From Albidovulum marisflavi (lineage in GTDB: Bacteria; Pseudomonadota; Alphaproteobacteria; Rhodobacterales; Rhodobacteraceae): 64,000 nt of DNA. The stretch is taken from positions 310,001 to 374,000 of the forward strand of contig NZ_JAOWKY010000002.1 in the NCBI RefSeq assembly GCF_025751435.1. Direction: 5' to 3'. Of the stretch, positions 2 through 17,207 are shown one piece after another. The notes under the pieces are model-generated. The model was not told the origin of the DNA and made no database searches. It saw nothing but the letters and a program-made list of their open reading frames with translations. Both the position numbers and the translations under genes were made by a program. Position 1 is the stretch's first letter, and each line of letters opens with the position of its first letter.

Positions 2-286
2 CCGGACTGGTACAGATTTATGGGTAAGCGAACGACCGGCGGTATCCGCCGTGCTGGCAACCCAAGAGAAGGCATCTTTGACCGTGAAGTGCCCAAGTAC
101 ACGCAAATTGGTAATGCCGTTCCAGTTGGGTTGGCCGAGCGGGTCGGCGCGCACTTCAAGCTCTTGCTTGAGGATGCGATAGGCGATGCTGGCAAAGGCC
201 GACTTTCCAGCGGCGACGGCGCTGGAGATGCTGACCAGGCACGCTATCGAGGCGGCCTTGTTGGTGCCAACACCGACCGGCCTTGA
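2..286 (+). CDS. C5-cytosine DNA methyltransferase, C-terminal part (5' end outside window)
   Basis: This is the 3' end of a gene that enters from the left edge, readable in phase from base 2. The 94 visible residues contain YTQIGNAVPVGLAERVG at about residues 37-53, which matches motif X of C5-cytosine methyltransferases (GNxV followed by a helix packing on the SAM site). Motifs I, IV (PCQ) and VI lie outside the window, so this rests on one motif plus context. It would methylate cytosine C5 in the site cut by the overlapping MvaI/BcnI-type endonuclease. The downstream T:G-mismatch glycosylase is the usual partner of a C5 enzyme rather than an N4 enzyme. The last ~33 codons overlap the endonuclease gene in another frame and look poorly constrained. 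Confidence 0.75.
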   Translation, partial: PDWYRFMGKRTTGGIRRAGNPREGIFDREVPKYTQIGNAVPVGLAERVGAHFKLLLEDAIGDAGKGRLSSGDGAGDADQARYRGGLVGANTDRP

Positions 287-1385
287 GAAGTCGATATTCG
301 ATGCGACGGACGGCCTGCGGGAATACCTCGCGGAACGTGGCTACCATGATTACGCGACGCAAGCTCAGGGGCAAGATCACAAGGTCCTGAAGCAAGCTTA
401 TCTCGTGAGGCCGCATTCGCTGGAGCCATCGCAGGTCTCGCTTTACCGGCCGACCACAAAGAACGGGGATCCCAGGATCTGGCTGGGACATCCCGTGCGT
501 TCTTACGCCAGTGCTTTCAACTTGCTGGCCCTAACCGTGATCGGCGGCACGTTGTACGTCCTGAACATGAGTGATCCGTCCGTGCAGGTGTCGCTGGATG
601 ACGCTGGATCGCCGTTCCGGAAGTTGGTCGACCGCGCTGATCAGGGTGATGTGGTGGCGAGCGAATTGCTCGGCCTTCTGCGACAGATATCGTCCAAGGG
701 TTACTTGCGAACGCTCCGTCCCGGAGACACCGGGATCGGCTTCACGCTTGAAACAATGCTCGGAATCTCCGCGAATTCGAATCAAGCCCCCGATTATAAG
801 GGGATCGAGATCAAGGCCAAGCGCAGTCGGATTGGTGCCGACAAGAGTCGCTCCACATTGTTTTCAAAAGTCCCGAACTGGAAGTTGAGCCCGGTCGGGA
901 ATGCTCTCGGCCTTCTCAAAGCCCGTGGCTATGTCGATAGTGGCGGACGCCTTTCGCTTTATCACACGCTTTCTGCGCTTGGGCCAAATTCGCTTGGTCT
1001 CGCGCTCGACATCGACGCGGAAAAGGATTGGCTTCGCCAGGTCTACCATAGCCCATCAACGCGTACTGTGATCCATGACGTGACCTGGGAAATCCCTGTT
1101 CTGAAAAGTGACTTGGCAGCGAAGCATCGCCAGACGTTCTGGGTTCGGGCGATGTGCCGAGGAGCTGGCCAAGACGAGGAGTTCCACTACGTCGAAGTTC
1201 AGCGTACGCGTCGACCAATGACTGCAAACTTCGTCGCACTCGTCGAAGCGGGCGTCATCACGGTCGACTATGCGCTCCACAAGAAGTCCGAGACGCGCGC
1301 GCGTGACCACGGCTACCTGTTCAAAATTCACCCCGACAAGCTCGGGGCTCTCTTCCCACCACCAGAAGTTCATGCCCTCTCCTGA
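186..1385 (+). CDS. MvaI/BcnI-family type II restriction endonuclease
   Basis: The 399-residue protein carries GDTGIGFTLETMLGI at about 180-194, followed by PDYKGIEIKAKR at 202-213. This gives D203-x4-E208-x-K210, the D-x4-E-x-K catalytic arrangement of the MvaI/BcnI PD-(D/E)XK fold. Family members recognise CCWGG or CCSGG and act as monomers, so a related pentanucleotide is the likely target; this is inferred from family. At 399 residues it is longer than MvaI or BcnI (about 240-250), leaving ~170 N-terminal residues unassigned. The chosen ATG has a weak GAGG about 10 bases upstream and overlaps the methyltransferase by 101 bases. An ATG at 228 is an alternative. The stop overlaps the start of the glycosylase gene, indicating one R-M operon. 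Confidence 0.85.
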   Translation: MLAKADFPAATALEMLTRHAIEAALLVPTPTGLEKSIFDATDGLREYLAERGYHDYATQAQGQDHKVLKQAYLVRPHSLEPSQVSLYRPTTKNGDPRIWLGHPVRSYASAFNLLALTVIGGTLYVLNMSDPSVQVSLDDAGSPFRKLVDRADQGDVVASELLGLLRQISSKGYLRTLRPGDTGIGFTLETMLGISANSNQAPDYKGIEIKAKRSRIGADKSRSTLFSKVPNWKLSPVGNALGLLKARGYVDSGGRLSLYHTLSALGPNSLGLALDIDAEKDWLRQVYHSPSTRTVIHDVTWEIPVLKSDLAAKHRQTFWVRAMCRGAGQDEEFHYVEVQRTRRPMTANFVALVEAGVITVDYALHKKSETRARDHGYLFKIHPDKLGALFPPPEVHALS

Positions 1386-2064
1386 CCATGTTACACCTGG
1401 CGAGAAGCGCAAGCTGACTAGGCTAGCAAAGGACCTGAAGCACTGGGCGAAGGTTAATGGCAGGGACTTCCCTTGGCGCTCGAGCGAGGCCAACACATAC
1501 CAGCAGGTCGTCGTCGAGGTCCTCCTCCAGCGCACGACAGCCGCGGCCGTGGCAGGATTTTTCGAAGCTTTCGTTGCAAAATATCCCAGCTGGGGCCAGC
1601 TTGCCTCGGCCAATGTCGAAGACCTGGAGGAATTCCTTAGGCCTCTTGGGTTGTGGCGTCGCCGGGCTCAGTCCCTCCTTGGTATTGCGAAGTATGCTGC
1701 TGAGAAAGAAGGACAATTCCCATCTGATCCCCTGGAACATCGCCAGATCCCTGCGGTCGGGCAATATGTTTCCAATGCGATCATGCAATTCCAACACGGA
1801 CAGCCTGCACCTTTGCTTGACGTGAACATGGCCCGCGTGATCGAGCGGTTCGTTCGCCCACGGAAGCTCGCTGACATCCGACATGACAAATGGCTGCAAG
1901 AAGCTGCCCACTGGCTCGTGCGTCAAGATCCGCGAGAGGTGAACTGGGCCGTACTGGATTTCGCAGCACTCATATGCCGTTCACGCAGTCCGCTCTGTAC
2001 TTCCTGCCCAGTGAGCGCCCGGTGCAGTTATTTCAAACGGGGCGGGAATGCACAGGCCGGATAG
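1372..2064 (+). CDS. Mig-like T:G-mismatch DNA glycosylase (HhH-GPD, 4Fe-4S)
   Basis: The 230-residue protein is a compact MutY/EndoIII-superfamily glycosylase. The helix-hairpin-helix reads IPAVGQY at 126-132, with the catalytic aspartate at D150 (LLDVN). A C-terminal 4Fe-4S loop has C202, C209, C212 and C218 (C-x6-C-x2-C-x5-C). Position 132 is tyrosine, where E. coli MutY has serine and endonuclease III lysine. Tyrosine here, 18 residues before the aspartate, matches the Tyr126/Asp144 pair of Methanothermobacter Mig, a thymine-DNA glycosylase encoded with a C5 methyltransferase. LLQRTT at 51-56 also resembles Mig. No MutY C-terminal Nudix-like domain is present. The ATG lies 14 bases inside the endonuclease gene, so the two are coupled. 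Inferred role: removing T from T:G after deamination of methylated sites. Confidence 0.82.
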   Translation: MPSPDHVTPGEKRKLTRLAKDLKHWAKVNGRDFPWRSSEANTYQQVVVEVLLQRTTAAAVAGFFEAFVAKYPSWGQLASANVEDLEEFLRPLGLWRRRAQSLLGIAKYAAEKEGQFPSDPLEHRQIPAVGQYVSNAIMQFQHGQPAPLLDVNMARVIERFVRPRKLADIRHDKWLQEAAHWLVRQDPREVNWAVLDFAALICRSRSPLCTSCPVSARCSYFKRGGNAQAG

Positions 2065-2293
2065 CTGGCGGAGGACGTAAGGCGAGCGCGCTGTTAATCA
2101 ATCCCCACTTGCCCGCATTGATGGGCCGCCAATTAACACATCATTGACCATCATGCGCCATATTCCTGCACGACCGTGCACCGCAGCGTGGCGGCATGTC
2201 TTGTCGTCCTTTTTGTAGGTCTGAGCCTAGCCGCAGTCGCGCGACCGTTCGGCTGGGGATCCCTGCCAGCTGCTCTCAGCGGGCACCTGAGCC

Positions 2294-5200
2294 GTGCCAG
2301 ATGCCGCTGCGGAGGCTTCTTCCCATCTTGACAGTTTTCGAGGCCTTTTGAACGATGTGGCGATGGACGCTTCCGTAACCACCGCATCGTTGAAAGATGC
2401 GAACGAGGCAATTTTCGAAGTAATGCTGTCTGGCAAGTACGCCGGGCGAGCGGTTTATTTCACGTTTGATGTCCAAGAGGCCCAAGAGATCGCGAAGCGG
2501 CTCGGGGTCGACGAGGACAGTGTTGAAGAACTATGCGCAAGCCTCGTCGGGGATGCGCTCGATAGGGGGCGAAACCCGTTCTTGACAGTGAGCCGAGAGG
2601 CCCGCCGGTGGGCCTCCGAAGGTATGGTTGGCCCGCCTCCATTCCTCGCGCTATTGCACGTGATGTCCCATGCTGCAGAGCTCATGGCTAACGACGGCGA
2701 ATATGCGGCGAACGCATACTACCCGCGGTTGGCGAGCCTCGTCGGGGGTTCGTCTGGAAATCTTCGCGACCAAGGCAAGCAAACCGAGCTCTTCTGGCGT
2801 CTTCTGGAGACTTGGCTGGCCGAGAATGATTACGAGCTTGGTCGCCCGACGGCTTCAGCACGCGGTACCTGGAAGTACGTCGGGCTAGCTATGTCGCAAG
2901 CGATCGTGCGGTCCACGGATCGCGCCGCGATGCACGACCTGTTCGATACCTATGGGTTCTCTAACGGGGATCGTCTAACGGTCGCCGATATTTATCCCTA
3001 TGTCGACGACTGGATCCGGTCGAGCAACTCCACGGCGCGACTTCGCAAGGCCTGGGAACAGAAAGAATTACGTGATCGTGTCTGTGAGATCGCGATCGAT
3101 GAGTTCCAAGATTGGTCCAACGATATCCTTGGTTCGCCCACAGGCCAAGCCAAGGAACACTCCCGTCGACTGACCCTTGTCGCGCAAGTCCTGCCATCCT
3201 TTCCAAAGCAAAGGCTGTCGCTGCACCTTGGTCGCAGTATGGAATTGAGCGAACCCGTTACCGGCTTAGTGGACGCCGCGGGAAACTCTTTTGACATATC
3301 CAATTCCACATTTGGAGCTTTCGCCACGATCTCACCAAACCCGATGGGGCGCAATAACTCGGGTCTAGCTTCCAGCATTTCCCTTAATGGTAGTAGCTAT
3401 CACCTTAGGTGGAGTTCTGGCCTCGTGATCCCGCTAACCAAGTCGAGCGAGGGACCATATTGGACAGAGATCGCTAGGGTCAGCATCGGAACGGAAATTA
3501 TCGTGCTGGTGCGCAACAAGAAAACCCTCGTAGAAGCGCTGGAGAACTTGCTCGCCGCCACGTCGACAGGTGAGGCGACATACCTTACCTCGCAAGAACT
3601 TGACGGTATTCCAGACGGATGGCGGCTATACAAGGACGTACGGATAATTCGGGCAGCAGACTGGGAGGTTGACACGGACTTGGAGCCGTTAATTCCGATG
3701 TCCGAGGGCGCGGGTTTCGTCATTTCTGGCGGCTTGCAGCTTGCTCGCGGAGTTTGGCATTCAAAAGCACCGCCAGCAGTCGACCTTGTAACCGATAGCG
3801 GCCCGACCCGGCTGGAAGCACAGAGGCCAAGTATTGGTGGCCTGCAGTTGGCCCGAGAGTCCCGATCTGACTCGCGTATCTGCAGCCTTCCAATGCAAGA
3901 TCTCGGCGATGCGAGTTACACCGTGCGTGGGTACACCGGTACCAAGCAGGTGGCCGAAACCCTCGTTGTATTGCGTTCTGCTGAACGGGCGCGTCCCCTT
4001 GACCGCCAAATGGTCGGCCGCCTCGCGCATGGGGAGGTATTCTCAGCGAAAGAGCCTCCCGCGGAGGGCTTTCCTTGCATGATCCGTGGCTTCATCGTTT
4101 CCCCGAAACCGCCAGCAGTAGAGCACCACGCGAAAGTAGACGCGGATGGTATGGAGAAGGTTCCGATTGCCGACGGTGTGTTGGATGACGAAGAAAACGG
4201 CTTTGCAGACGAAGACGTTGTCGCCATTCAATCACAGTCCTGTGCCGCCCGCGGGCACCATATTTGGAGGTGCGAATCTGCCCCCGTCGAAGCGATAGCA
4301 TCCGGACTGAGGAAAGTAATGAGCACGCCGCTTAAGATGGAATGCGTCGACTGCCATCTCGCGGTCATCGCAAGAAATCGTGGGCGGAAAAAGAAGAAAC
4401 CGGAGGAGGTGCGTTCTCCCATCGCCCACAAAAGCACGCGTGGGAAATGGGATAGACCACCAAAAGCGGTCGACCTTGATTTCGACCTGCTCTTCGACGC
4501 GCTTTGCTTCTTGGGCTCGGGGTCCTGGGGTCGCATGGACAGGCTTCTTGTCGGTCAAGACATCCCACCTTGGACACTGGGTGAGATGGCGGGCGCGTGG
4601 GCATCTCTGGGTTTGATCGATGTATCTTACGCGCCAGGGACACATCGCCCAAAGAAATGGAGCGTGCCCCCACCAGCAGTATGTGCGACTGAGGACGGCC
4701 AAGGCTTTTTCTCCGGATTTCGGTGTGATCCACTTATCGACTTGGCACTAGAAGAGCTTGTTGGTTTGGGTGGGACCGCCTCGGTCATTGAACAAGAAGG
4801 CGCGCCACGTCACATCGGTTTTCGAAACGTCGATCTTGGCGACCTCGCCGAACGTATAGGGGCCCTGGAAGACCCCCTCGGAAGGTCGTTCTCGATCGTC
4901 GAGCAACCGGCACTTGACTTGGTGAGAGCGATAACCTCGCTCCCGGGGCTCGAGGCTTCATTAGTACCCATTTCAACGGGCGCATCTCCCCGCCACCTGC
5001 AGTTTTTCGACATCGAAGGCGCTCGTTGGCGCCGCGCGGAGGCGATATCTGGCGAAGGCGCCTACCGGTTTGATCACGCTGGGCGAGTCTATGTTTACCG
5101 GGGCGCCGATGGCCGTGAGTTCATGGGACCACAGCAGGTCATCAAGCTGCTAGCTGCAAGGCAGCGTGGTAGCCGCCTTCATCGCTACAATGAACAGTCC

Positions 5201-5380
5201 CGCGAGTTTACTTCGACGCGGGGAGCGGAGCCAGTCGGCTTGCTCGCCCGTGCGTTGGTGGCCTGCAGTGGTCGTCTTCCGCGCAAGGATGACAGTGGGT
5301 TGACCATTTATGAAAACGTCCGGCCGGAAATCGGCCAAGCAGTGCTGTTTAATCTCTATTCAAGGAAGCTGATCGAATGA
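2294..5380 (+). CDS. Large Druantia DruH-like protein of unknown fold
   Basis: This protein of about 1005-1028 residues precedes the giant helicase and overlaps it by an ATGA, so the two are translationally coupled. I recognise no catalytic motif. It looks soluble, with no membrane segment or signal peptide. A possible metal-binding pair C-x2-C sits at about 684-687 (ECVDCH), after a GHHIWRC stretch and before a basic RGRKKKK patch at about 695. The arrangement of a ~1000-residue orphan directly before an ~1800-residue DUF1998 helicase matches Druantia type III (DruH then DruE). The DruH call rests on size and context, not on a motif. The GTG at 2294 has no clear ribosome-binding site, and the in-frame ATG at 2363 is equally possible. 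Confidence 0.5.
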   Translation: MPDAAAEASSHLDSFRGLLNDVAMDASVTTASLKDANEAIFEVMLSGKYAGRAVYFTFDVQEAQEIAKRLGVDEDSVEELCASLVGDALDRGRNPFLTVSREARRWASEGMVGPPPFLALLHVMSHAAELMANDGEYAANAYYPRLASLVGGSSGNLRDQGKQTELFWRLLETWLAENDYELGRPTASARGTWKYVGLAMSQAIVRSTDRAAMHDLFDTYGFSNGDRLTVADIYPYVDDWIRSSNSTARLRKAWEQKELRDRVCEIAIDEFQDWSNDILGSPTGQAKEHSRRLTLVAQVLPSFPKQRLSLHLGRSMELSEPVTGLVDAAGNSFDISNSTFGAFATISPNPMGRNNSGLASSISLNGSSYHLRWSSGLVIPLTKSSEGPYWTEIARVSIGTEIIVLVRNKKTLVEALENLLAATSTGEATYLTSQELDGIPDGWRLYKDVRIIRAADWEVDTDLEPLIPMSEGAGFVISGGLQLARGVWHSKAPPAVDLVTDSGPTRLEAQRPSIGGLQLARESRSDSRICSLPMQDLGDASYTVRGYTGTKQVAETLVVLRSAERARPLDRQMVGRLAHGEVFSAKEPPAEGFPCMIRGFIVSPKPPAVEHHAKVDADGMEKVPIADGVLDDEENGFADEDVVAIQSQSCAARGHHIWRCESAPVEAIASGLRKVMSTPLKMECVDCHLAVIARNRGRKKKKPEEVRSPIAHKSTRGKWDRPPKAVDLDFDLLFDALCFLGSGSWGRMDRLLVGQDIPPWTLGEMAGAWASLGLIDVSYAPGTHRPKKWSVPPPAVCATEDGQGFFSGFRCDPLIDLALEELVGLGGTASVIEQEGAPRHIGFRNVDLGDLAERIGALEDPLGRSFSIVEQPALDLVRAITSLPGLEASLVPISTGASPRHLQFFDIEGARWRRAEAISGEGAYRFDHAGRVYVYRGADGREFMGPQQVIKLLAARQRGSRLHRYNEQSREFTSTRGAEPVGLLARALVACSGRLPRKDDSGLTIYENVRPEIGQAVLFNLYSRKLIE

Positions 5381-8300
5381 GGCAAGCCACCCCGACGCGA
5401 GTTCAAGACTACATTCGAGAAGCCTACCTGAAATACTACGATTCTGCTTTCTGGATGCGGGATGATGGCATCATGGCCGAACGCCGCGAGCTCCTACAAG
5501 CGTCTGGCGTGATGGCACAGGAACCGCTCTTGGAAGCCGTTCCGCAGTACCCATCAGTTGAAGCCATAGAAGAGGCCTGCAAACGCGCCGGGCTCTCGAG
5601 TGAAACTGCATCGCGATTAGGTCCACTGGTATTCGGCTCTGATCAATCGATTAAGCTGAGGCAGCACCAAGCGGAAGCGCTCGTCGCTGCTATGTCCGGG
5701 AACGGACTGGGACAACGAAACGTTGTGGTTACGTCCGGTACCGGCTCGGGAAAGACTGAGAGCTTCCTCCTCCCCGTCTTGGCAGGGATATTGGAAGAGC
5801 GGACCAAGAAGGGCACTCGGGGCCCCATGAAACCTTGGTGGGAAAAAGACCTCGAGCGACACGACAAGGCTTGGAGCCACAGCCGAGCGCTAGCCAGGGA
5901 TCCGTCGGATGCAGCCATTCGCGCCCTAGTGCTGTATCCGACCAATGCCTTGGTCGAAGACCAAATTTCGCGCCTTAGGCGTTCGGCCATGCGAGCGATC
6001 GAGGAGACCGGTGATCCAGTCTTCTTTTTCGGTAGGTATACCGGCGCGACGCTTGGTGAGACCTACGTTCCGCCAGCGTCCCTGAAGTCAAACGATCGGG
6101 GAAAGATCAACAAGGTCGCGAAAGAGATCCGTGAAATTGCAAAAGAGGCAAGGGAACTCAGGGAGTCGCTCAAAGTATCCGGCAAGTCGTCGACGGAGAT
6201 CCTTGATGCGGCCAGCCAGTTCCAAGACCCGTACTGCGGGGAGATGCTGACGCGTTGGGACATGATCTCGGCGCCGCCTGACATCCTGATCACGAACACG
6301 AGCATGCTGAACATCATGCTTCTTCGTGACGTCGAAGATCCCATTTTCGAGAAGACGCGCGAGTGGCTCGAGGCCGACGAAGCCAATCACTTCAGCTTGG
6401 TCGTCGACGAATTGCACAGCTATCGTGGCACGCAGGGAACTGAGGTTGCGTTGGTCGTGCGCAACCTCCTCGATCGGCTTGGACTTGGCCCTGACTCGTG
6501 CCAGTTGCGCTGCATCGGCACAAGCGCATCCTTGGACCCCGATAGCGGTATCGAGTACTTGGAGCAGTTCTTCGGGGTCGACCGAAAAACCTTCGCGATC
6601 CTACCGGGCAAACCCGACGAATTCTCCATGAACCTTCCGGTAAAAACGGATGTCCTCGAAGAAAACCTGATCGATCTGAACTCGGGAGAATTAGAGAAGG
6701 TAAAGGCCGCTTCAAAAAATGTATGCCAGAATTTTTCACCACGGACTGCTCTTGCAGCCGCTTGCAAAGCTGCTGGTTTAACCGTCGCGCCGGCGGGGGG
6801 CGAAGCAGAAGCTGTCTCTATAGTCCGGCCCGCGAAGCTTTCTCGGATAGGGAGTACATTATTCGGCCCGAGCAGCTCGGCTGAGCTTCTTGATGCAATC
6901 ATGATAGCGGCAACTCATGAGGACCGCGGGAGCTGGGAGAACCCAAAGCCGACCTTCCGATCGCACATGTTCATGCGTCAAGTGCAGGGGGTTTGGGCTT
7001 GTTCGAACCCGGATTGCTCGGAGGTCGAGGAGAAATACCGGTCGAAGGAGCGGAGGATCGGTCGGCTCTTCAAGTCACCCGCATTGAAGTGCGAGTGTGG
7101 CGGCCAAGTTCTGGAACTCTTGTACTGTTACGATTGTGGAGAAGCCTTCCTAGCGGGGTTCGTGGTCCCGTCCAGCAGCCCGACCTTGAAAGACCAGATC
7201 TTTCTCGAGGCAACCAAGTCGGTCGAGGGTGGCGGCTATCCTGGAATGGTTTATGAGCGACCACATGATGAGTTCAGGTGGTATTGGCCGGGTGGCCGAA
7301 TACCTGCAGGGTCGTCCAGTTGGACACATGGGTTTCCAAGCGGGAATGGTTCCGGAAAATTCCAGTTCCAAACAGCCCGGTTGGACTACAATCTAGGGTT
7401 ACTTGTGCCTGGCGACCCCGATCCGACTGGAGTCGTTTTAGCTGCGCCGTCGAACCTACCCGAGGGTCTCACCGTCGCTGGTCTCCCTGAGACGTGCCCT
7501 CACTGCTTGAGCTCTTATAGCTCACGCAATCAACGGGACCTGAAGGCATTCTACAGGGGCACGGTTCAAACCCCGATTCGCGGCCTCCGTACCGGCTTGA
7601 ACGTTACGACCCAGCTGATCGCCGATCGCGCGATGCTGTCGACCGGTGACGGCGTGGCTGCCGAGAAGATGATTGCGTTCACGGATAGCCGAGACGATGC
7701 CGCCGACTTGGCGGCCGGCCTCGAACTGCATCACTTCCGCGACCTGGTGCGGCAGCTCGTCTTCAAGCAGTTCTCTGAGGAGAACGTACCCACTTCGGCC
7801 GAACTCCGGAAGATCATCCAAGCCGTCAAGAGCGGTGATCCGGATGCCATCGCGCAACGCGAAGCCGCGAACAAGAAGACACCCGGTATCTATGACGCCT
7901 CGGTGAAGATCGAGTTCGGAGTCGACGAGGAGGCCGACAGGGAGTTGATCGCCAAGCACGACGCGGCTGTTGGGTCCGGAGCCATAGCTTGGCCTGCCTT
8001 GATGGTCGCGCTTCGTGATTCCCTAGTGGCTCTCGGCCAAAACCCCGCTGGCACGGATGCCAGTCGCGCTACCGACCGCCCCGATGGCGATGGCACCCCG
8101 TGGTGGAAGTTCTTCGATCCGCCAGAGGGCGCAACATGGGCGACGCTTGATGCAACGGCGGCGAGCGACGGCCGCCGCGAGTTCATGGCGCACTTGTCGA
8201 GGACAGTTGCTTCCTCGCTGTTTGACCAAGCTGGACGCGATCTCGAGTCGATGGGTACGGCAACGATCGACCTCGACTCTGACTGCGGCAAAGAGCTTGG

Positions 8301-10884
8301 CATGGACGACGCGTTGGCTAGGGGCATCGTTGGCAACGTCATCAGGATCCTCGGGCAGGCACGTCTCCTCGAGGGCGAAAGAACGCGTTCCTCGACGAAC
8401 CCGCCCACCCAAGTCAAAGAATACCTTGAGAAACTCGCGCCCTTGGCGAACAGGCAACCCGCGGAGCTCGCTGAAGCGATCAAGGAGCTCCTGCGCAAGA
8501 AGAACGCGCTGACCGACCAATGGCTCTTGGCGATTGGACGACATGCGTCGTTCCCATTGAAGCTTGTTCCAAGGGGCGAACGCGCTCTGAAAAGATGTGC
8601 GACCTGTGCCAAGTCGACGATGGTGGTTCCCCTGAATATTTGCACGACCCCGCATTGTGCGTCGCGGGATTTCGTAGAGGTCCCGAATCCAGGCGAAGAC
8701 TACTACGCCTGGGTGTCGAGGGAACCTGTCCATCGCCTGTCGGTGGAGGAGTTGACCGGACAGACTAAGCCAATGTCGAAGCAGCGAAAGAGACAGCGCC
8801 TGTTCAAGGGTGAAGCGTTCGTCGGTGAGGAGCACGAAATTACGCATGGTCTCGACGCCTTGTCGGTCACGACCACCATGGAAGTCGGCGTCGACATCGG
8901 CTCCCTGAAACTCGTCATGATGGCCAACATGCCGCCTCAGAGGTTCAACTATCAGCAACGTGTTGGTCGAGCTGGTCGAGCCGGGCAGGCATTCTCATAT
9001 GCCGTGACGATTTCGCGAGGCGCAGCTCATGATGATTACTACTTCAACAACCCGGAACGCATGACAGGGGATATTCCTCCCCAGCCCGAGTTAGATCTAT
9101 CGCGTCCAGAGATCATCAAGCGGGTGGCAGCCGCAGAAGCGTTGAGGCGCGCTTTCAATAGCCTTGCTCAACCGCCTGGAAGGACCCCGGAGAGCGCGCA
9201 CGGCGCATTTGGAAGGGTCGACGAGTGGTTCCCGGTTTACCACGCGGACGTTGCGAACTGGTTGGCCACGTCGCCGGAGGTCAAGGAAATCGTCGAGAGG
9301 ATTTGCGCCTACACACCACTTGAACGCCCGGCCCAAGTTGACGCAATCGAGCAGTATCTTCGAAATCAACTAATCACCAAGATCGGCGAGTGTGTTCAGA
9401 GCAGCCAATTCATCCAAGATGAACTGAGCCACCGACTGGCAGTTGCTGGCTTGCTTCCGATGTTTGGCTTCCCGACGCAGGTTCGAAGCCTTTTCTGGGA
9501 CAAGAAGGCAAACCGGGCCGAAGACACCGTAATCAGCGATCGACCGCTTGACCATGCTATCTGGGCCTTTGCACCGGGCGCCGAGATTCCAAAGGACAAG
9601 AGGCTCTACACGGCCTGCGGGTTTGTCTTCCGTAGAGACGGCCACCAGGGCGTTGTGAACGAAGCCGCCCCGCTTGGCGCATCCTTACCTTACTGGAGAT
9701 GCACGGAAAAAGCGTGCGGAACCATTGCACAAGGCAATGCCGAGACCTGCCATGTGTGCGGAAATCCTGCGCAGACATTCCCACTGTACCAGCCGAAAGG
9801 ATTCATGGCGCACTGGAAAGCCCGGGACTACGATGGCCAACGTCAGCGCGGCCCCGCGCTCCCGCCACCTGTGCGCGCGTTCGACCAGCCCTACGACCCA
9901 TTAACCAGTTGTGGACCTATGCTTCTCGCGCTCGGCCAGGGGCAAGTTGCCTTGATCAACGACAATGGCGGCGATCTCTACGAGTTCACGCAGGAACCTT
10001 ATGACAAGGTGACCGTCCGTGATAGCTCGCTCTACCGGGACGACTACATGTTCACCGGCGACGGAGGGGAGGTAATCGATCGAGGAGCAATCGGGGCCGT
10101 TTTCACGACCGACGTGCTAAGCTTCTATTTTGACGGCGCTCAGGACATCGGAAACGGGGGTGTACTTGACGTTGTCGAACAACGATCCGCTCGGCCGGCG
10201 ATTGCCTCTTTCGCGGAGTTCGTGAAGCTTGCCGTTTCCACCGAGCTGGACATCGACCCGGAGGAGTTTCGTTCTGGTCGCCAACGATTGAAGCTTGATG
10301 GACGTGCTTGTGAAACCGAGCAGGTTTTCATCGCGGACAAGCTAGAGAACGGTGCCGGGTATTCACGCTGGGCGGCGAAGCCCGAAAACATGAGGCGCTC
10401 ACTCGAGCGCTTCTTGGACGGCGATGATGGGGTTGGACGAACTTGGCAGGACGACGCGCATTCGCGGGACTGCGACTGCTCATGCCCAGATTGCCTGAGA
10501 AGCTATGCCAACCGCTTCATACACGGATTGTTGGACTGGCGCCTCGCCCTTGACCTCGCGGACCTAGCGCTTGGTCGCGGCTTGGACACGAGCAGGTGGA
10601 TTGGTGGTCCAGAGGACCGGGCCGCACAATCGTTCAAGAAGTTTTGCGATAGCACGGGCCTCCCCGTCGAGATTGACTACGCAGAAGGTCTCACTGCGAT
10701 CGTTTCCGGCACCAAGGCTCTTATCCTCGGGCATCCGCTGTGGCACACGCGTGAGGGCTTGTGGCAGCCGCAGCAGACCGATGCACGGAATGAACTGCGT
10801 GCTAGGGGCATCGAGGCCACGTGCGTCGACGTCCGCGACTTCACTGCCCGGCCGGCAGTCTACTACATGGAGCTCCGCGCGTGA
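5377..10884 (+). CDS. Giant DEAD/DEAH helicase with DUF1998-like C-terminus, DruE-like
   Basis: The 1835-residue protein has a superfamily 2 helicase core. A Q-motif-like LRQHQAEAL is at 94-102, Walker A TSGTGSGKTES at 119-129 and a DELH Walker B at 344-347. Lobe 2 has TMEVGVDIGSLK near 1170 and motif VI QQRVGRAGRAGQ near 1193-1204. Zinc-ribbon-like cysteine groups occur around 550-590 and near 1450. The C-terminus has C1699-x-C-x-C-x2-C1706 followed by LRSYANRFIHGLLDWRLAL, the DUF1998 signature. Length and domain order fit DruE, the signature helicase of Druantia anti-phage systems; DISARM DrmB also has DUF1998 but is much shorter. It overlaps the genes on both sides (ATGA at 5377, GTGA at 10881). 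Confidence 0.72.
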   Translation: MRQATPTRVQDYIREAYLKYYDSAFWMRDDGIMAERRELLQASGVMAQEPLLEAVPQYPSVEAIEEACKRAGLSSETASRLGPLVFGSDQSIKLRQHQAEALVAAMSGNGLGQRNVVVTSGTGSGKTESFLLPVLAGILEERTKKGTRGPMKPWWEKDLERHDKAWSHSRALARDPSDAAIRALVLYPTNALVEDQISRLRRSAMRAIEETGDPVFFFGRYTGATLGETYVPPASLKSNDRGKINKVAKEIREIAKEARELRESLKVSGKSSTEILDAASQFQDPYCGEMLTRWDMISAPPDILITNTSMLNIMLLRDVEDPIFEKTREWLEADEANHFSLVVDELHSYRGTQGTEVALVVRNLLDRLGLGPDSCQLRCIGTSASLDPDSGIEYLEQFFGVDRKTFAILPGKPDEFSMNLPVKTDVLEENLIDLNSGELEKVKAASKNVCQNFSPRTALAAACKAAGLTVAPAGGEAEAVSIVRPAKLSRIGSTLFGPSSSAELLDAIMIAATHEDRGSWENPKPTFRSHMFMRQVQGVWACSNPDCSEVEEKYRSKERRIGRLFKSPALKCECGGQVLELLYCYDCGEAFLAGFVVPSSSPTLKDQIFLEATKSVEGGGYPGMVYERPHDEFRWYWPGGRIPAGSSSWTHGFPSGNGSGKFQFQTARLDYNLGLLVPGDPDPTGVVLAAPSNLPEGLTVAGLPETCPHCLSSYSSRNQRDLKAFYRGTVQTPIRGLRTGLNVTTQLIADRAMLSTGDGVAAEKMIAFTDSRDDAADLAAGLELHHFRDLVRQLVFKQFSEENVPTSAELRKIIQAVKSGDPDAIAQREAANKKTPGIYDASVKIEFGVDEEADRELIAKHDAAVGSGAIAWPALMVALRDSLVALGQNPAGTDASRATDRPDGDGTPWWKFFDPPEGATWATLDATAASDGRREFMAHLSRTVASSLFDQAGRDLESMGTATIDLDSDCGKELGMDDALARGIVGNVIRILGQARLLEGERTRSSTNPPTQVKEYLEKLAPLANRQPAELAEAIKELLRKKNALTDQWLLAIGRHASFPLKLVPRGERALKRCATCAKSTMVVPLNICTTPHCASRDFVEVPNPGEDYYAWVSREPVHRLSVEELTGQTKPMSKQRKRQRLFKGEAFVGEEHEITHGLDALSVTTTMEVGVDIGSLKLVMMANMPPQRFNYQQRVGRAGRAGQAFSYAVTISRGAAHDDYYFNNPERMTGDIPPQPELDLSRPEIIKRVAAAEALRRAFNSLAQPPGRTPESAHGAFGRVDEWFPVYHADVANWLATSPEVKEIVERICAYTPLERPAQVDAIEQYLRNQLITKIGECVQSSQFIQDELSHRLAVAGLLPMFGFPTQVRSLFWDKKANRAEDTVISDRPLDHAIWAFAPGAEIPKDKRLYTACGFVFRRDGHQGVVNEAAPLGASLPYWRCTEKACGTIAQGNAETCHVCGNPAQTFPLYQPKGFMAHWKARDYDGQRQRGPALPPPVRAFDQPYDPLTSCGPMLLALGQGQVALINDNGGDLYEFTQEPYDKVTVRDSSLYRDDYMFTGDGGEVIDRGAIGAVFTTDVLSFYFDGAQDIGNGGVLDVVEQRSARPAIASFAEFVKLAVSTELDIDPEEFRSGRQRLKLDGRACETEQVFIADKLENGAGYSRWAAKPENMRRSLERFLDGDDGVGRTWQDDAHSRDCDCSCPDCLRSYANRFIHGLLDWRLALDLADLALGRGLDTSRWIGGPEDRAAQSFKKFCDSTGLPVEIDYAEGLTAIVSGTKALILGHPLWHTREGLWQPQQTDARNELRARGIEATCVDVRDFTARPAVYYMELRA

Positions 10885-12854
10885 TCGAAGTCATCGGACA
10901 TGGCGGAAGCCCCGAATACGAAGCTGCGCTGAAGATAAGGTCCGCCTTAGCTTCTTATTGGCCAGGCATTGAAGATTCGCCCGCCGAGCAAGATCACGTG
11001 AAAATCGCTGCCAATACCAAGTTAGCCGGCTACAAGGTAAGTGACATCGACGTCGTTATCGCCGCCAAATTCGCCCGGGGACGATACTTCGTACCGAAAT
11101 CTACCCTCAAGGACAAGGATGGGCGCAGAGTCGCCGGCGCAAAGATCCGTGTTCTGTCCTTGGTGGCCGCCATAGAGGTCAAGGGACATGACGCCAGTGG
11201 ACTCAGCATAAGCAACGGGGGCGTTAGCGTATCCTACAAGGAGGGCTCGAAGAGTGCGACTGATCAAAACGATGCCCAGGCGCAGGCGCTAAAACGCTAC
11301 TTCAGCGATCTGACACGTCAGAATCCGTGGGTTTATCGCTCCGTACTCCTCACGGGCATCAATGAACTTCCGAGAGATCGAGGGCGCCAAGTGCCGGATG
11401 CCGGCGCTGTCGCGGCGAACTTTGATTTCGGCGGCTTGCTTTGCTCGATGGTAGGCATCCATGGCATCGGAGAAATTGGAAACGAGTACACCATCTCGTC
11501 CGCCAAGCCCGAGGCGATGGAGTCTATTCTTTCGGCCTCGATCTTTAGGCAGGTTGTACCTTCCAACCTCGACCGCAAGAAGATGGATCGAATTGCCGCT
11601 AGGCCGCCCGAGGCAATTGAGATAGCTGGCCTAATAGGCGATGAGCGCGTTCATCTACGCGGCGAGGGCGGGACCGGAAAGACCGTTCTTTTGGCACAGG
11701 CGGCGCACGAGGCCTTCAGGTCCCATGCGAAGCGTTCACTCTTTCTCACATACAACCACGCCTTAACAGCCGACATTCAGAGGGTTTTGGCGCTGCTGGG
11801 AGTTCCCAGCAGCGGTGATTGTGGGGGTGTCGATGCCCGGACCGTCATGTCATTCGTATACTCTTGGTTGCGTAGGCTTGGCGCCATTGGCGAGGATAAA
11901 GACTTTGAATTCGATCGTTACGGCGAGCAGTGTGAGAAAGCTCTAGAATTATTCGAAAACGGGCTTTTGAGTGACGAAGACATTGCACTGGCAAAGTCAA
12001 CGAACTTCGAAGAGTTCGACTATGATGCAATCCTCATCGACGAAGCGCAGGATTGGCCACAAGCCGAAGCCGATCTTCTTGTCCGATTGTACGGCGGAAA
12101 TACGATTTCTTTGGCTGATGGAATGTCACAGCTCGTGAGGGGCAAAGCAACAGATTGGCGGTCCTCTGTTCGCGACCGCAAGGGAACGAAGAAGCTCCCA
12201 CTTCAAGAATGCCTACGGATGAAGGGAAACCTAGGGCAATTTGCAAATATTGTCGCGGAGCGAGCCGGGCTCAACTGGAAAATTATCCCTAATTCGGAGG
12301 CAGCCGGTGGTAGAGTGATCATCCGAGATGGTGCCTTCAAAGAGATGCCGGACCTGCACGAAGAACTCTTGGCAAAGGCGCGCAGCGATGGCTGCGAGCC
12401 GATCGATTGCCTTTACTGCGTCCCGTCTGCAGGCGTAGTAACGCGTGGCAACCGGCGGGTCAGCGTTCTTGGCGCGGCGATGGGAGAACGAGGCCTGTCT
12501 GTTTGGGATGGCGTGGATCCAGTTGCTCGGCGTGATTTTCCTAGGTCAACAAAAGAAAACCGTATCGTTCAATACGAATCTTGCCGAGGTCTAGAGGGCT
12601 GGGTGGTAGTTCTCGACGCCCTGGACGATCTGTGGGCGGCCAAGTACCGAGACGCACTCGCGGAGCCATCTTCGCTAGGAGGCGCGATAGAGCCGGAGGT
12701 GAGAGCGCGGCGTGCGGCATGGACCTGGTGCCTAATGGCCATGACGCGGCCCATCGACACTTTGGTAATCACTCTCAGCGATCGCGGTAGCGAGGTCTCG
12801 CAAGTACTGAACCGTATCGCCCAGGCCTACCCGGATATTGTTGAAGTTGCGTAG
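10881..12854 (+). CDS. NERD-like nuclease fused to SF1/UvrD-type helicase
   Basis: The 657-residue protein starts at a GTG whose last two bases begin the TGA stop of the upstream helicase. Its N-terminal ~110 residues show D55/D57 (SDIDVVI) followed by AIEVKGH with E99 and K101, the D...ExK pattern of NERD/PD-(D/E)XK nucleases. The ATPase part has Walker A GEGGTGKT at 261-268, Walker B LIDEAQDW at 386-392, then SCRGLEGWVVV near 572 and a C-terminal AMTRPIDTLVITL typical of the last UvrD/Schlafen-type helicase motifs. It should therefore cut DNA and translocate on it. Tight coupling to the DruE-like gene suggests a third subunit or effector of the same system. Druantia type III as I know it has only two genes, so its presence is notable. 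Confidence 0.72.
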   Translation: MIEVIGHGGSPEYEAALKIRSALASYWPGIEDSPAEQDHVKIAANTKLAGYKVSDIDVVIAAKFARGRYFVPKSTLKDKDGRRVAGAKIRVLSLVAAIEVKGHDASGLSISNGGVSVSYKEGSKSATDQNDAQAQALKRYFSDLTRQNPWVYRSVLLTGINELPRDRGRQVPDAGAVAANFDFGGLLCSMVGIHGIGEIGNEYTISSAKPEAMESILSASIFRQVVPSNLDRKKMDRIAARPPEAIEIAGLIGDERVHLRGEGGTGKTVLLAQAAHEAFRSHAKRSLFLTYNHALTADIQRVLALLGVPSSGDCGGVDARTVMSFVYSWLRRLGAIGEDKDFEFDRYGEQCEKALELFENGLLSDEDIALAKSTNFEEFDYDAILIDEAQDWPQAEADLLVRLYGGNTISLADGMSQLVRGKATDWRSSVRDRKGTKKLPLQECLRMKGNLGQFANIVAERAGLNWKIIPNSEAAGGRVIIRDGAFKEMPDLHEELLAKARSDGCEPIDCLYCVPSAGVVTRGNRRVSVLGAAMGERGLSVWDGVDPVARRDFPRSTKENRIVQYESCRGLEGWVVVLDALDDLWAAKYRDALAEPSSLGGAIEPEVRARRAAWTWCLMAMTRPIDTLVITLSDRGSEVSQVLNRIAQAYPDIVEVA

Positions 12855-12882
12855 CGTCATAGATCGGCGAGCCGAGGAGGAT

Positions 12883-12912
12883 CGCGGTCGGAGTGTCTTC
12901 TTTCCGACCGCG
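12883..12912 (+). terminator. Hairpin after the defence operon
   Basis: A perfect 10-bp inverted repeat, CGCGGTCGGA and TCCGACCGCG, encloses a 10-base loop 28 bases after the helicase-nuclease stop codon. It is followed by GGGAATTT rather than a run of T, so intrinsic termination would be weak. The position at the end of the operon supports a terminator or an mRNA 3'-end-stabilising stem. Confidence 0.6.
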
Positions 12913-13519: not shown

Positions 13520-14041
13520 TCAACACATGCCGCTCCGATTCTGAGGCTGGCTTGCTGTCCGATTGACGTTAAGCTGGGCGTCGATGCCGAGATGCACCTT
13601 CCGCCATTCTCGCGGCTTGGAGGGCCCATGTTTCTTGGCCAACCACTCACCGTCACCCCCAGCCTTGATACCGGTGCTGTCGATCAGCAGGTGCAAAGAA
13701 CCCGCGCTCGGACGATAGGGGATCAGGACGACCAGATGCTTCTGGCGGCGGCTCAGCGTGCTGAAATCCGGCACCGGCCAATCGAGCCCGGCCAGGTCCG
13801 GCAAGCTCCCCTCCATCCCGGTCGCTTGCCGCAGCGGCCGCCCGAAGAGCGCCTTCAGCGTCAGGCAGGTCTGGATCGCCGCGTCCGGGAAGACGGGCTG
13901 CCGCCCGCGCTTGCCGGTCGGTTTGGCAAACCACTGCGTCTCAGGATCGAACCAGATCGACAGCGATCCGCGACTTGCCGGCGCGGCGTCATGGTCATGC
14001 CAGTTCGTGGTTCGGTAGACTGGAGGCTTCGGCCTGCTCAT
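13520..14041 (-). pseudogene. IS5-family transposase, 3'-truncated
   Basis: The minus-strand frame begins MSRPKPPVYRTTNW and runs through an IS5-type N-terminal region to the first catalytic aspartate in LLIDSTGIK and then KVHLGIDAQ. Transposase similarity stops at about 13573, followed by an unrelated tail to a stop. The remaining DDE aspartate and glutamate should lie in the missing C-terminal part, so the enzyme is dead. It is the same transposase as the internal fragment at 17991-18265. Confidence 0.85.
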
Positions 14042-14104
14042 CCCGCCCGGCTAACAGACTGAATTCACAAGGTGAATCCTCCACCCGATTTACGCAACAA
14101 AGCC
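13573..14104 (-). mobile_element. Partial IS5-family insertion sequence
   Basis: One end of the element is kept. Beyond the transposase start the plus strand reads GATTTACGCAACAAAGCC, ending at about 14104, which on the minus strand is an IS terminus starting GGCTTTGTTGCG. The nuclease-toxin reading frame resumes immediately after it, so the element inserted into, or recombined with, that toxin gene. The other end was lost at about 13573. I see no second terminal repeat or target duplication. Confidence 0.65.
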
Positions 14105-14526
14105 GCCGTTTCGACGTTGTATCAGTAAAGGACGGCACCTATTATCTGACGGAAATCAAATGGCGTGAGAACGAGGACAAAAGGAAATCACTTGTCCGCA
14201 AAGCTGGCAGGGCGTTGGATCCTTTCCGAAAGGCGCCATCTGGGAAGAAGGTGCTCGAAGCCGGTACAGCCCTTGCGCAACTGTATTTCGACGCAACACT
14301 CAAATCTGATATCGATCTGGAGGGCAGAGAGCTTCCACAAGGAGGATTGGAAGGTCTTTCCGAGATGGAGGGGGAAGTGGTAATCCGCTGGGAGCTCTGG
14401 GGGGACAAGAATGATGAAAAGATCATCAACCTCTCCGTTATCAAAAGGATCGCTGACCCGGAAGAGCGCAATCGCGTGAAAGAGAACGTCGTGAACGACC
14501 TGATGGAGCAAATGTCAGTTCAATGA
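14104..14526 (+). pseudogene. C-terminal nuclease-toxin remnant cut by IS5
   Basis: An open frame emerges from the IS end and gives about 140 residues with RRFDVVSVKDGTYYLTEIKW at its start. The aspartate followed by TEIK fits the D...ExK core of PD-(D/E)XK nuclease toxins at the C-termini of Rhs or CDI proteins. The upstream delivery part and any start codon are missing. The frame overlaps the next gene by ATGA, the typical toxin-immunity arrangement. Base composition is lower in GC than the surrounding housekeeping genes, typical of exchanged toxin tips. I cannot name the toxin family. A pre-toxin domain rather than the toxin itself is possible. Confidence 0.5.
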
Positions 14527-15188
14527 CCGACTCTGTCCCTCTTAGTCGCTTTGTGAAAGATCGCCCGCTGAAATGGAAAAGGGCGAGCCTCCGATACCGT
14601 TATCGCGATGCGTTTCTTTCGCTTGAGCGGGCTAACCGGTCGGAATCTCTCGGGGCGTATTATGTGCTGGTGCGCTTGCAATCTGAACGTTTCGAAAGGT
14701 TTCTGAGTGCAGTAAAGCAGTCTTCCGAATTTGTAGAAAAACTACCAAAAGTCAGGCATACTCTAAAAAGTCCGGGGCCCGCGACACTGGGGCAGGCCAG
14801 TTTTGGAATTCATCTTCCGGGGTATGTGCTTGACAAGAGCATGATTTTGATTTCGGAACCATATTCGGAAAGAGAGTCATTGGTTCCTATTGGATTCGAC
14901 ACTTTATCAGAGAAACGATTCTGCTCCTTTCTCGCTCATGTCGACGATCTACTAAATTCTTCAGATGGACTTTACCGTGCACATGAGCGAAACGGGTTCA
15001 TTAATTGTGATTTGGGGCATTTTGATATTTTCTGGAGCTACATTTTTGCGGCTGCCCTTGCCAGGCTACCTGTCGAAGAATGTGCACGGCGTATTTTTAG
15101 TGATGTTGGTGCGCACTATGCACGTCCTATCAACGCGCCAGACGCAAGCTTTGTAGATTCTCTATACCGGATAGCTCTCTCAACATAG
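14523..15188 (+). CDS. Putative immunity protein for the truncated nuclease toxin
   Basis: The 221-residue protein begins at an ATG overlapping the stop of the toxin remnant (ATGA). I do not recognise a family. It is predicted soluble, with no signal peptide or membrane segment, and its composition is relatively AT-rich compared with the glycan or nar genes nearby. Position directly after a polymorphic-toxin C-terminus and before an Rhs tip makes an immunity role the simplest inference. With its toxin truncated it would now act as an orphan immunity gene against related competitors. Confidence 0.5.
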   Translation: MTDSVPLSRFVKDRPLKWKRASLRYRYRDAFLSLERANRSESLGAYYVLVRLQSERFERFLSAVKQSSEFVEKLPKVRHTLKSPGPATLGQASFGIHLPGYVLDKSMILISEPYSERESLVPIGFDTLSEKRFCSFLAHVDDLLNSSDGLYRAHERNGFINCDLGHFDIFWSYIFAAALARLPVEECARRIFSDVGAHYARPINAPDASFVDSLYRIALST

Positions 15189-16561: not shown

Positions 16562-16843
16562 ATGAAATATAAAGCAGAGATAAAACTAAAAAAGGAAGGA
16601 GGTAGAAAGGAGGCTATACGGCATTCACCGTTCCTCGGACATATTAAATTTAATGAAGCCGATGCTGAAGGCTTTAGTGTTAAGGTTTTCTTTGACGATA
16701 CCGTACATTGGGAGGTCGGAGAATCGATGGAGTGTCGCGTGGAGTTTTTGCACTATGACATATTTCCTGTAGACTTAAGAGGTGATGTCTTTACGTTGTT
16801 TGATGGACGAGTTATAGGTAATGGTAGGTTTGCATCTTCGTGA
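16562..16843 (+). CDS. Putative immunity protein resembling EF-Tu domain III
   Basis: The 93-residue protein starts one base after the toxin stop. Its sequence follows the beta-barrel of EF-Tu domain III: KAEIKLKKEGGR then HSPFLGHIKF near the N-terminus, and GESMECRVEFLH then FTLFDGRVIGNGRF near the C-terminus. In EF-Tu the matching strands read EVYILSKDEGGRHTPF and GDNIKMVVTLIH, ending in EGGRTVGAGVV. No GTPase domain is present. The gene is clearly AT-rich compared with its surroundings. Position makes it the cognate immunity protein of the adjacent toxin. The resemblance suggests it either mimics EF-Tu towards the toxin or simply reuses a common barrel fold. The similarity is read by eye and needs profile confirmation. 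Confidence 0.65.
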   Translation: MKYKAEIKLKKEGGRKEAIRHSPFLGHIKFNEADAEGFSVKVFFDDTVHWEVGESMECRVEFLHYDIFPVDLRGDVFTLFDGRVIGNGRFASS

Positions 16844-16937: not shown

Positions 16938-17207
16938 GACGACCTGTATCCCGAGTTCTTCACCATGCGGAACCGCGAGGTGGGGACGAAGCATGTCTTC
17001 GCCGGGTCCACGCGGCTGGTCTCGAAGCTGGTCAAGCAGCCGAAGGATATCGACGGCGACGGCACGCCCGACCCGATCGCCAACTGCGCGGCGGAGCCCT
17101 GGGGCTGGACCAACGGCAACGGGCTGGGCCTTGGTCATGCCAATGGCAATAACGGTCAGGGCAATGGCTGGTGCAACGGCAATGGCGGAGGCAATGGGAA
17201 CAACCCG
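16938..17207 (+). pseudogene. Second Rhs-tip fragment
   Basis: The frame opens after TGA at 16935-16937 and encodes DLYPEFFTMRNREVGTKHVF through the GNG-rich linker, near-identical to the start of the 15232 gene. It stops matching at about 17207, before the Rhs core motifs, and continues out of register for ~20 codons to a stop at 17279. It has no start codon of its own and no shell, so it is a displaced cassette fragment. The 87 bases before it (16844-16930) are AT-rich and without a gene. Confidence 0.75.
16956..17207 (+). repeat. Rhs-tip direct repeat, copy 2
   Basis: This ~252-bp segment repeats 15268-15513, with a small length difference in the glycine/asparagine linker. Confidence 0.85.

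Follow-up and report, generated by a model that had tools for sequence, protein, structure and literature searches.

A candidate Druantia type II/IV variant accompanied by exchangeable C5-methylation modules

Genes of the locus and their products

The window, that is, the whole stretch of 64,000 nt analyzed here, with coordinates counted from its first letter, opens with six reading frames that share one direction and were all confirmed (Table 1). Only the 3' end of the C5-cytosine methyltransferase (MTase) gene lies inside it; the whole gene (501 aa, L002:16781-18286) starts 1220 bases 5' of the window. Overlaps of 101, 14, 4, and 4 bases join the frames into two modules, as the sequence-only reading had described, with the second figure holding when the glycosylase start is taken at 1372. 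For the start codons at 186, 5377, and 10881, support short of proof comes from homologues whose alignments begin at residue 1. The modules are separated by 229 bases between the end of the glycosylase gene and the start of druF, in which no promoter was found. The inverted repeat that follows the last gene is a possible terminator or processing hairpin and has no T-run 3' of it. A ZacA/ZacB-like pair is found upstream of the locus, the GC content is lower over about 1 to 18 kb, and phage lysis/tail genes adjoin the cassette both here and in a related locus, L008.

Table 1. Features at the start of the window and the evidence for their assignment
Feature	Position	Strand	Basis
C5-cytosine DNA methyltransferase, 3' end	2..286	+	PF00145 8.7e-55 on whole gene
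MvaI/BcnI-family restriction endonuclease, 399 aa	186..1385	+	PF15515 1.2e-52
HhH-GPD DNA glycosylase with 4Fe-4S motif	1372..2064	+	PF00730 9e-15
druF, 1028 aa, DruL-like C-terminal part 770-1021	2294..5380	+	PADLOC DruF2 PDLC00016 9e-108
druE, 1835 aa, YprA-type SF2 helicase with MZB (DUF1998) domain	5377..10884	+	PADLOC DruE2 1437.5 bits
PD-(D/E)xK (NERD-like) nuclease fused to UvrD-like SF1 helicase, 657 aa	10881..12854	+	motifs, model, fold matches
10-bp perfect inverted repeat, 10-base loop, directly 3' of last gene	12883..12912	+	read by eye

The MTase retains intact PCQ and ENV motifs and matches the PADLOC profile MTase_II (1.6e-72) better than DruM (9.5e-53), that is, ordinary type II methylases score higher. 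The restriction endonuclease reaches 179.7 bits with PF15515, above the cut-off of 25, and its PD..E-x-K motif is intact; it is 51% identical to the copy in locus L005, and the PD..E-x-K stretch is invariant between the two. In the glycosylase, a Tyr at the position of the EndoIII Lys, the catalytic Asp and a C-x6-C-x2-C-x5-C cluster are found in 6/6 homologues. From comparison of Mig with EndoIII, we take the replacement of the lyase Lys by Tyr to mark a Mig-like enzyme, with T:G glycosylase as its predicted activity; the best NCBIfam match is MutY (7.8e-40), below the cut-off of that model. A type II restriction-modification (R-M) system of the MvaI/BcnI type with a Mig-like glycosylase is ordinary by itself. 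A restriction glycosylase of the PabI/CcoLI type was rejected, as the protein matches HhH-GPD and PabI is described as having a HALF PIPE fold (PMC10273834). The glycosylase of this locus might nevertheless itself restrict.

The gene at 2294, earlier called an orphan of about 1000 aa, encodes DruF: the profile PDLC00016 covers residues 35 to 1001 of 1028, and the PADLOC DruL4 profile matches the C-terminus (2.6e-7). DruH was rejected for this gene, since only DruF and DruL models match at E<=1. The structure model of DruF has a pLDDT of 62, and its best fold matches, many of them Ig-like β-sandwich domains, are weak (about 1e-3). Comparison of DruF with the inactivated CnuB/McrB-like GTPase homologue that marks type IV CoCoNuT systems (Bell et al.) drew on this low-confidence model and the same weak matches.

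The expectation of a giant DUF1998 helicase held up, as the next gene encodes a type II DruE that matches DruE2 over its full length and has intact GSGKT, DELH, and QRVGRAGR motifs. Pfam recognizes DEAD (4e-14) and, below its cut-off, MZB (3.8e-4); there is also a weak match to BrxH (1.5e-10). No conserved D/E-x-K was seen by eye in the final ~110 residues. The C-terminal Vsr domains of DruE in Druantia types I and II are described as predicted inactive (PMC12458937), while for type III a requirement of the DruE nuclease site for defence is described (PMC13192584).

The last gene had been read as a NERD nuclease-SF1 helicase. Motifs and fold sustain the SF1 helicase; the NERD label is based on residues and topology, and the Pfam domain (PF08378) misses its gathering score, with E 0.18 for the window protein and a single one of the 14 members reaching E<=0.1, at 0.036. 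D57, E99, K101, GxGKT, and DE[AG]QDW are kept in all 14 members, which are 30 to 82% identical to the window protein, and 13/14 have a UvrD-helicase Pfam match at E<=0.1. The structure model (pLDDT 86.3) contains, by eye, the α-β-β-β-α-β order of a PD-(D/E)xK core with extra short strands, and its fold matches are SLFN11, PcrA, UvrD, and Rep (Foldseek: SLFN11 2.4e-14, 1pjr 6.5e-13, 4c30 3.1e-12). The closest sequence match of solved structure is a HelD-type helicase (6.7e-6). Identity with DruG or DruK was rejected, as neither profile matches; the DruK profile matches in locus L048. No homologue of this nuclease-helicase matched among 50,697 phage records, and the portions of the literature consulted contained no description of it as a Druantia component.

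Partners of the cassette across loci

Rather than being rarely found together, a possibility raised by the sequence-only reading, the two modules are regular neighbors: a C5 methylase module lies beside the cassette in 11/11 evaluable loci. The clade of the window comprises 13 loci, of which two were left out. In L011 the contig ends 80 bases past the cassette and there is no C5 MTase upstream, nor at the other end of the same contig (L082, 3.3 kb); L017 is degenerate, in a genome without an MTase match. The package of MTase, MvaI/BcnI nuclease, and Mig-like glycosylase occurs in 7/11 loci, one glycosylase being a remnant. The proposed survey of co-occurrence found all six genes also in L005, L008, L009, L012, and L014, and L016 holds the set with the glycosylase as a remnant only. 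In the other 4/11, the place of MvaI and glycosylase is taken by a C5 methylase of another kind, the locus also containing a Vsr gene, and no MvaI was found in the three genomes (G387, G389, and G391) or the plasmid record (W01) that carry this package, the search for L004 covering the plasmid record only. A fixed six-gene unit including the R-M module was therefore rejected; what stays constant is the presence of a methylase, in common with Druantia type II, and not this particular R-M system. A gene predicted to act in T:G mismatch repair (one a remnant) is present in 11/11 evaluable loci. Vsr does not always adjoin its MTase, lying ~9 kb off in L004 and at the opposite cassette end in L010/L083. 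At L013, the frames that lie entirely between MTase and Vsr are at most 93 aa long, leaving no candidate restriction enzyme there, and none was recognized among the scanned neighbors of L015, which include one 201-aa frame without assignment. The cassettes of L004 and L005 are plasmid-borne, and L004 also carries a DndH-like gene.

Among DruE-type loci without a recognized DruF, a C5 methylase was found in 3/29, and in 0/7 of the type I loci among them; Fisher's test of 11/11 against 3/29 gives 1.6e-7, which is not a true probability as the rows are related. The three controls that do carry a methylase are L059, where an MvaI-like gene (3.2e-22) also occurs, L065, and L079; these and L055 were left without a type, and the stretches of L064 and L073 are short or truncated. 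Because the local profiles used for typing came from few sequences, a distant DruF may be missed. Plasmid controls came from the 60 matches to DruE listed out of 160 records, of which five served as controls and two were clade members; of three equal-scoring Sinorhizobium records one was taken in and two were left out. L034, a wrong contig, was set aside. Other DruF loci have a C5 MTase in 6/12 cases, with none in the examined stretch of the remaining 6/12, and methylation is therefore not universal for DruF systems.

The DruE and nuclease-helicase trees agree with each other, and the two methylase packages interleave on both. Parsimony requires at least two package switches on the tree and six changes of placement; where a package lies is unrelated to descent. 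The window and L008 are 88% alike in DruE, 82% in the nuclease-helicase, and 64% in their MTases, which flank the cassette on opposite sides. The MTase of L008 clusters with its counterparts in L014 and L016, apart from that of the window (support 96/97). Because the second kind of methylase is not a resolved group in the tree, "two packages" may hide more.

The family of the nuclease-helicase did not turn out to keep unrelated company, another possibility that had been raised: druE is present in 19/22 loci examined, three of the 19 being type I Druantia. The order druF-druE-nuclease-helicase was found in eight genomic loci with spanning DNA and on two plasmids. In L051, L063, and L066, the nuclease-helicase stands behind a type I Druantia that has no C5 MTase, making it independent of methylation; it is not obligatory, as it is absent from G364 and 4/7 type I loci. 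Nuclease-helicases of other families occupy this position in L049, L025, and L067, as does a GajB-like one in L071 and, from weak matches, probably also in L072, L074, and L077.

Comparison with known defence systems

The suggestion of a Druantia-like system, hybrid or extended, is supported by the DruE2 and DruF2 profiles, and we give about even weight to reading the locus as a Druantia type II/IV variant, taken together with the mechanism set out below. Type II is described as DruM, DruF, DruG, and DruE (PMC8565338). The locus resembles it in DruE2 and DruF2 by profile and in its C5 methylase, and Vsr genes also occur in L028 and L056, loci that resemble type II, with the order MTase-DruF-DruG-DruE-Vsr on plasmid L028. 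Unlike type II, the locus is without a recognized DruG, its DruF has a DruL-like C-terminus, the nuclease-SF1 helicase is added, and the methylase belongs to an exchangeable R-M or repair module. None of the six proteins had DruG among its matches at E<=1 (for DruE, among the best 25 of 39); the same model detects L028 at 1.7e-124. Type IV, described as DruE, DruF, and DruL without DruM/DruG (PMC8565338), shares DruE, DruF, and DruL-like sequence with the locus, in which the DruL-like part is fused to DruF rather than encoded by a separate gene and a C5 methylase is present. DruH, the component sought for type III, was not recognized in the locus, where the 2294 gene matches DruF and DruL models only (E<=1).

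ARMADA type II, as described in PMC12458937, likewise has a YprA helicase, ArmC, alongside ArmD, a helicase of the UvrD family bearing an extra N-terminal domain, but that domain is a RelE-like RNase in ArmD and PD-(D/E)xK in the locus. No separate BrxHII-like or PglX-like gene was seen among the six proteins or the ten upstream frames scanned. TALON, from the same source (PMC12458937), also combines a YprA helicase with a NERD-type nuclease in one operon; in the locus, by contrast, no TPR-CSD or TBP genes were recognized, DruE is of the Druantia type, and the nuclease forms one protein with an SF1 helicase. With their overlapping frames, the genes for methylase, nuclease, and glycosylase resemble an MvaI/BcnI type II R-M system with a Mig-like glycosylase, for which regular company with a Druantia cassette is unusual.

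A possible division of labor

The two interchangeable methylation modules beside the cassette suggest that methylation marks self for defence. In the mechanism that we propose, to which the even weighting above applies, the C5 MTase would mark host DNA as self, the role of DruM, and the Mig-like glycosylase or Vsr would repair C-to-T damage caused by 5-methylcytosine. DruF may sense or tether the target, a guess in view of its poor model, and DruE would load onto and unwind invading DNA that lacks the mark. Cutting would fall to the nuclease-helicase behind DruE, because in types I and II the C-terminal nuclease of DruE is predicted to be dead. The MvaI/BcnI nuclease, dispensable for the Druantia part, would contribute ordinary restriction at those methylated sites. 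Going further, we tentatively propose that the DruF-DruE-nuclease-helicase core takes any C5 methylase as a plug-in self mark, provided that one is there, and repeatedly captures complete modules that combine methylation and T:G repair, some of them whole R-M systems, differing in sequence family and probably in specificity, with cutting outsourced in trans to the NERD-like SF1 helicase, the DruE nuclease being dead.

The same arrangement might arise if the C5 R-M system and Druantia were independent defence modules, brought together by islands or prophage cargo sites. The ZacA/ZacB-like pair, the lower GC, and the phage genes describe such an island, the 229-base gap contains one terminator-like site where chance predicts 0.6, and L004 has its DndH-like gene in addition; chance neighborhood fits poorly with a C5 methylase in 11/11 evaluable loci, regardless of side or strand, compared with 3/29 without recognized DruF, or with the absence of a recognized restriction enzyme at L013 and L015. 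We consider independence a serious if somewhat doubtful possibility. Alternatively, the R-M system could mainly be an addiction device that retains the cassette and its mobile carrier, its methylation having no part in Druantia. The MvaI-type system in 7/11 loci, and cassettes on plasmids and beside phage genes, are in keeping with this, but in 4/11 the search of genome or plasmid record found no MvaI, and no restriction enzyme was recognized at L013 and L015, so that a known addictive agent would be missing unless Druantia itself kills, and we regard this explanation as improbable.

A separate doubt concerns the cutter, since the nuclease-helicase could be a UvrD/HelD-like accessory for repair or DNA clearing, with DruE or DruF cutting through an unrecognized domain. 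Its best sequence match of solved structure, a HelD-type helicase, the unreached NERD model, and its absence from some Druantia loci would agree with such a role; the catalytic D, E, and K, invariant in 14/14 members at 30 to 82% identity, and the other nuclease-helicases found in the same place, including the GajB-like one, argue against it, and we think it rather unlikely.

The available text of the literature did not explain how Druantia types I, II, or IV work. The prediction that the DruE domain is dead in types I and II (PMC12458937) raises the question of what cuts phage DNA there. The nuclease-helicase, with invariant catalytic residues and a place directly behind druE in both types, is a candidate for this cutter. 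The exchangeable methylase modules make the role of methylation in Druantia type II testable. If the core accepts any C5 methylase, then, unlike classical restriction, it would not read a single fixed sequence.

Druantia identity of the six-gene locus

The sequence-only reading had placed six genes here, and all are real: a C5 methylase, an MvaI/BcnI nuclease (MvaI), a Mig-like glycosylase, druF (2294), druE (5377) and a nuclease-helicase gene (10881), with overlaps of 101, 14, 4 and 4 bases exactly as it gave them and 229 bases separating the glycosylase gene from druF. The methylase is cut by the window edge; its full frame, read on a longer stretch of the same contig (L002), contains PCQ and ENV motifs. 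In PADLOC, residues 35-1001 of the 2294 product match DruF (PDLC00016, 9e-108) and its C-terminus is DruL-like (2.6e-7); the product of 5377 is DruE of type II, at 1437.5 bits against 1301 bits for the type IV model. Neither DruH nor DruG is among the models listed as matching. The locus is therefore Druantia II/IV and not III, so that the earlier Druantia-like assignment holds while its type III (DruH) option falls away. According to the available text of PMC8565338, type II needs all of DruE, DruF, DruM and DruG, with DruL taking the place of the last two in type IV; against that scheme the window locus is intermediate between the two, and we regard it as a new variant of Druantia. Such loci are uncommon: among 385 alphaproteobacterial genomes 3 match the DruF profile (one weakly), and among 398 proteobacterial genomes 10 match the DruE2 profile at 1e-50, three of them across nearly its whole length.

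The nuclease-helicase and its companions

The predicted fold (pLDDT 86.3) of the 657-aa product of the third cassette gene (the cassette being druF-druE-nuclease-helicase) is that of a UvrD-like SF1 helicase, and the best solved-structure matches include SLFN11, PcrA, UvrD and Rep. In the model the N-terminal part runs alpha-beta-beta-beta-alpha-beta, plus additional short strands, and D57 opens the second long strand while E99-x-K101 closes the third; D57, E99, K101, GxGKT and DE[AG]QDW are conserved in 14/14 relatives. The Pfam NERD model scores below its cut-off, and the protein is therefore named PD-(D/E)xK, NERD-like, which retains the SF1 helicase of the earlier reading and softens its NERD label.

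druE stands beside the nuclease-helicase gene in 19/22 loci examined: 10/10 from a profile scan of genome contigs (one via a second contig, one degenerate), 3/4 plasmids examined out of 6 matching records (one with truncated genes), 4/6 loci on viral contigs, and both carriers among 388 proteobacterial genomes (the window's own and G717). The gene lies 3' of druE everywhere except in L020, where it is 5' of druF. Three type I loci (L051, which is G717, and L063 and L066, contigs of L018 and L019) carry it after DruA, a 954/1020-aa protein, DruD and DruE; it was not found in four other type I loci, nor in genome G364, whose DruE is 40% identical. The same position is occupied by other nuclease-helicase families in L049, L025 and L067, the first two with DruF-like genes, and by DruK, a PD-(D/E)xK nuclease, in L048. 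No druE was recognised in locus L022, where a homologue lies close to TmtA-like and type III restriction-like proteins.

Exchange of the methylase module

The window's clade comprises 13 loci, 11 of which could be judged, and in each of these 11 a C5 methylase sits immediately next to the cassette, by itself or together with its package. Seven have the MvaI package (window, L005, L008, L009, L012, L014, L016), the other six with methylases 64-68% identical to the window's; the glycosylase is present in 6/7 and is an 85-aa remnant in L016. The remaining four (L004, L010/L083, L013, L015) combine a methylase 31-34% identical to the window's with a Vsr gene, which adjoins the methylase in L015 and lies 0.7 kb away in L013 (no complete frame >93 aa between), at the opposite cassette end in L010/L083 and ~9 kb away in L004. 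Neither the genomes of L010/L083, L013 and L015 nor L004's plasmid yielded MvaI. The module lies upstream or downstream of the cassette, on either strand.

Within the stretches examined, a C5 methylase occurs in 6/12 other DruF loci, 0/7 type I loci and 0/5 long proteobacterial DruE-like loci; it occurs in 3/17 other viral DruE-like loci, among them L059, where an accompanying MvaI-like gene is maybe the same partnership at greater distance. The 11/11 compares with 3/29 without recognised DruF (Fisher p 1.6e-7) and with the other DruF loci (p 0.014), p being only a guide as the loci are related. The association is strong in the window's clade and partial among other DruF systems.

The DruE and nuclease-helicase trees are concordant for common loci, MvaI and Vsr packages are intermixed on them, and the methylases of the Vsr loci form no resolved group in their tree. 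On the nuclease-helicase tree, where some forks have 81-94% support, parsimony counts 2 package switches and 6 placement changes. With labels shuffled, placement changes averaged 6.6, and 44% of shuffles did not exceed the observed number; placement thus has no relation to descent. The corresponding share of shuffles for packages is 8%. Window and L008 share 88% (DruE) and 82% (nuclease-helicase) identity, and their methylases, on opposite cassette sides, are 64% alike and not grouped together. Modules have therefore been replaced and their presence retained.

Genomic setting and proposed mechanism

GC is ~0.54-0.60 in the first ~18 kb of the window vs 0.60-0.67 beyond, and 20 same-family genomes gave no DruE2-type match at E<=1e-50, which is compatible with horizontal gain. 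Phage-type genes precede the methylase, the L008 module likewise lies close to an endolysin gene and to tailed-phage genes for head and tail, and the cassette may be prophage cargo. The ZacA/ZacB-like pair is likely another defence pair, the Rhs-like frames with their small ORF look like a polymorphic-toxin cassette array, and the overlapping ORFs are possibly a small two-gene system.

Features of the locus, its surroundings and compared loci
Feature	Location	Remarks
Full methylase frame	L002:16781-18286	501 aa
Hairpin, 10 bp, perfect	window 12883-12912	3' of last stop codon; read by eye from sequence
ZacA/ZacB-like genes	L002:9206-13095	two, minus strand; weak matches (1.4e-8, 3.3e-11); ~5-9 kb before window start; IS240-type transposase adjoins
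Phage-type genes	L002:14125-16568	phrog_6368, DUF6127/phrog_10540, M15 peptidase phrog_17373, phrog_26778; stop 0.2 kb 5' of methylase, 1.4 kb before window start
275-base repeats	window 13715-13989, 17991-18265	97% identical; in apparent IS5-type transposase remnants (by eye) flanking the stretch at 14-18 kb of the window
ORF pair	window 13975-15188	183 and 221 aa; 4-base overlap
241-base repeats	window 15266-15506, 16954-17194	92%; in Rhs-like frames (by eye)
Small ORF	window 16562-16843	3' of first 241-base repeat
NERD+UvrD proteins, other families	L049:17343-18956; L025:14128-15849; L067	PADLOC RTasNERD-Hel, C3a187
MvaI-like gene and C5 methylase	L059:17889-21614	minus strand; 2-4 kb behind druE relative; viral contig
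1817-aa protein	L004:1328-6781	DndH-like C-terminus (5.8e-69); in line with C5 methylase and Vsr; Shinella plasmid

Gene content, motifs, co-occurrence and module exchange are established here. Mechanistically, C5 methylation would mark self, T:G repair would be the price of 5-methylcytosine, and a nuclease would be supplied in trans. The available text of a preprint (PMC12458937) describes a C-terminal Vsr nuclease in DruE types I and II that is predicted inactivated, and in ARMADA II a UvrD-family helicase, ArmD, alongside the YprA helicase; visual inspection of 15 aligned DruE sequences showed no conserved D/E-x-K over the C-terminal ~110 residues. For type III DruE, mutation of the PLD site eliminates Druantia defence, according to the available part of another preprint (PMC13192584). 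We found no description of a NERD-helicase in Druantia in the available text of PMC12458937, PMC10952713, PMC7251935, PMC10273834, PMC11090510 and PMC8565338, and some earlier publication may already depict one. The new Druantia variant gives a testable hypothesis on self-marking and on the missing nuclease.
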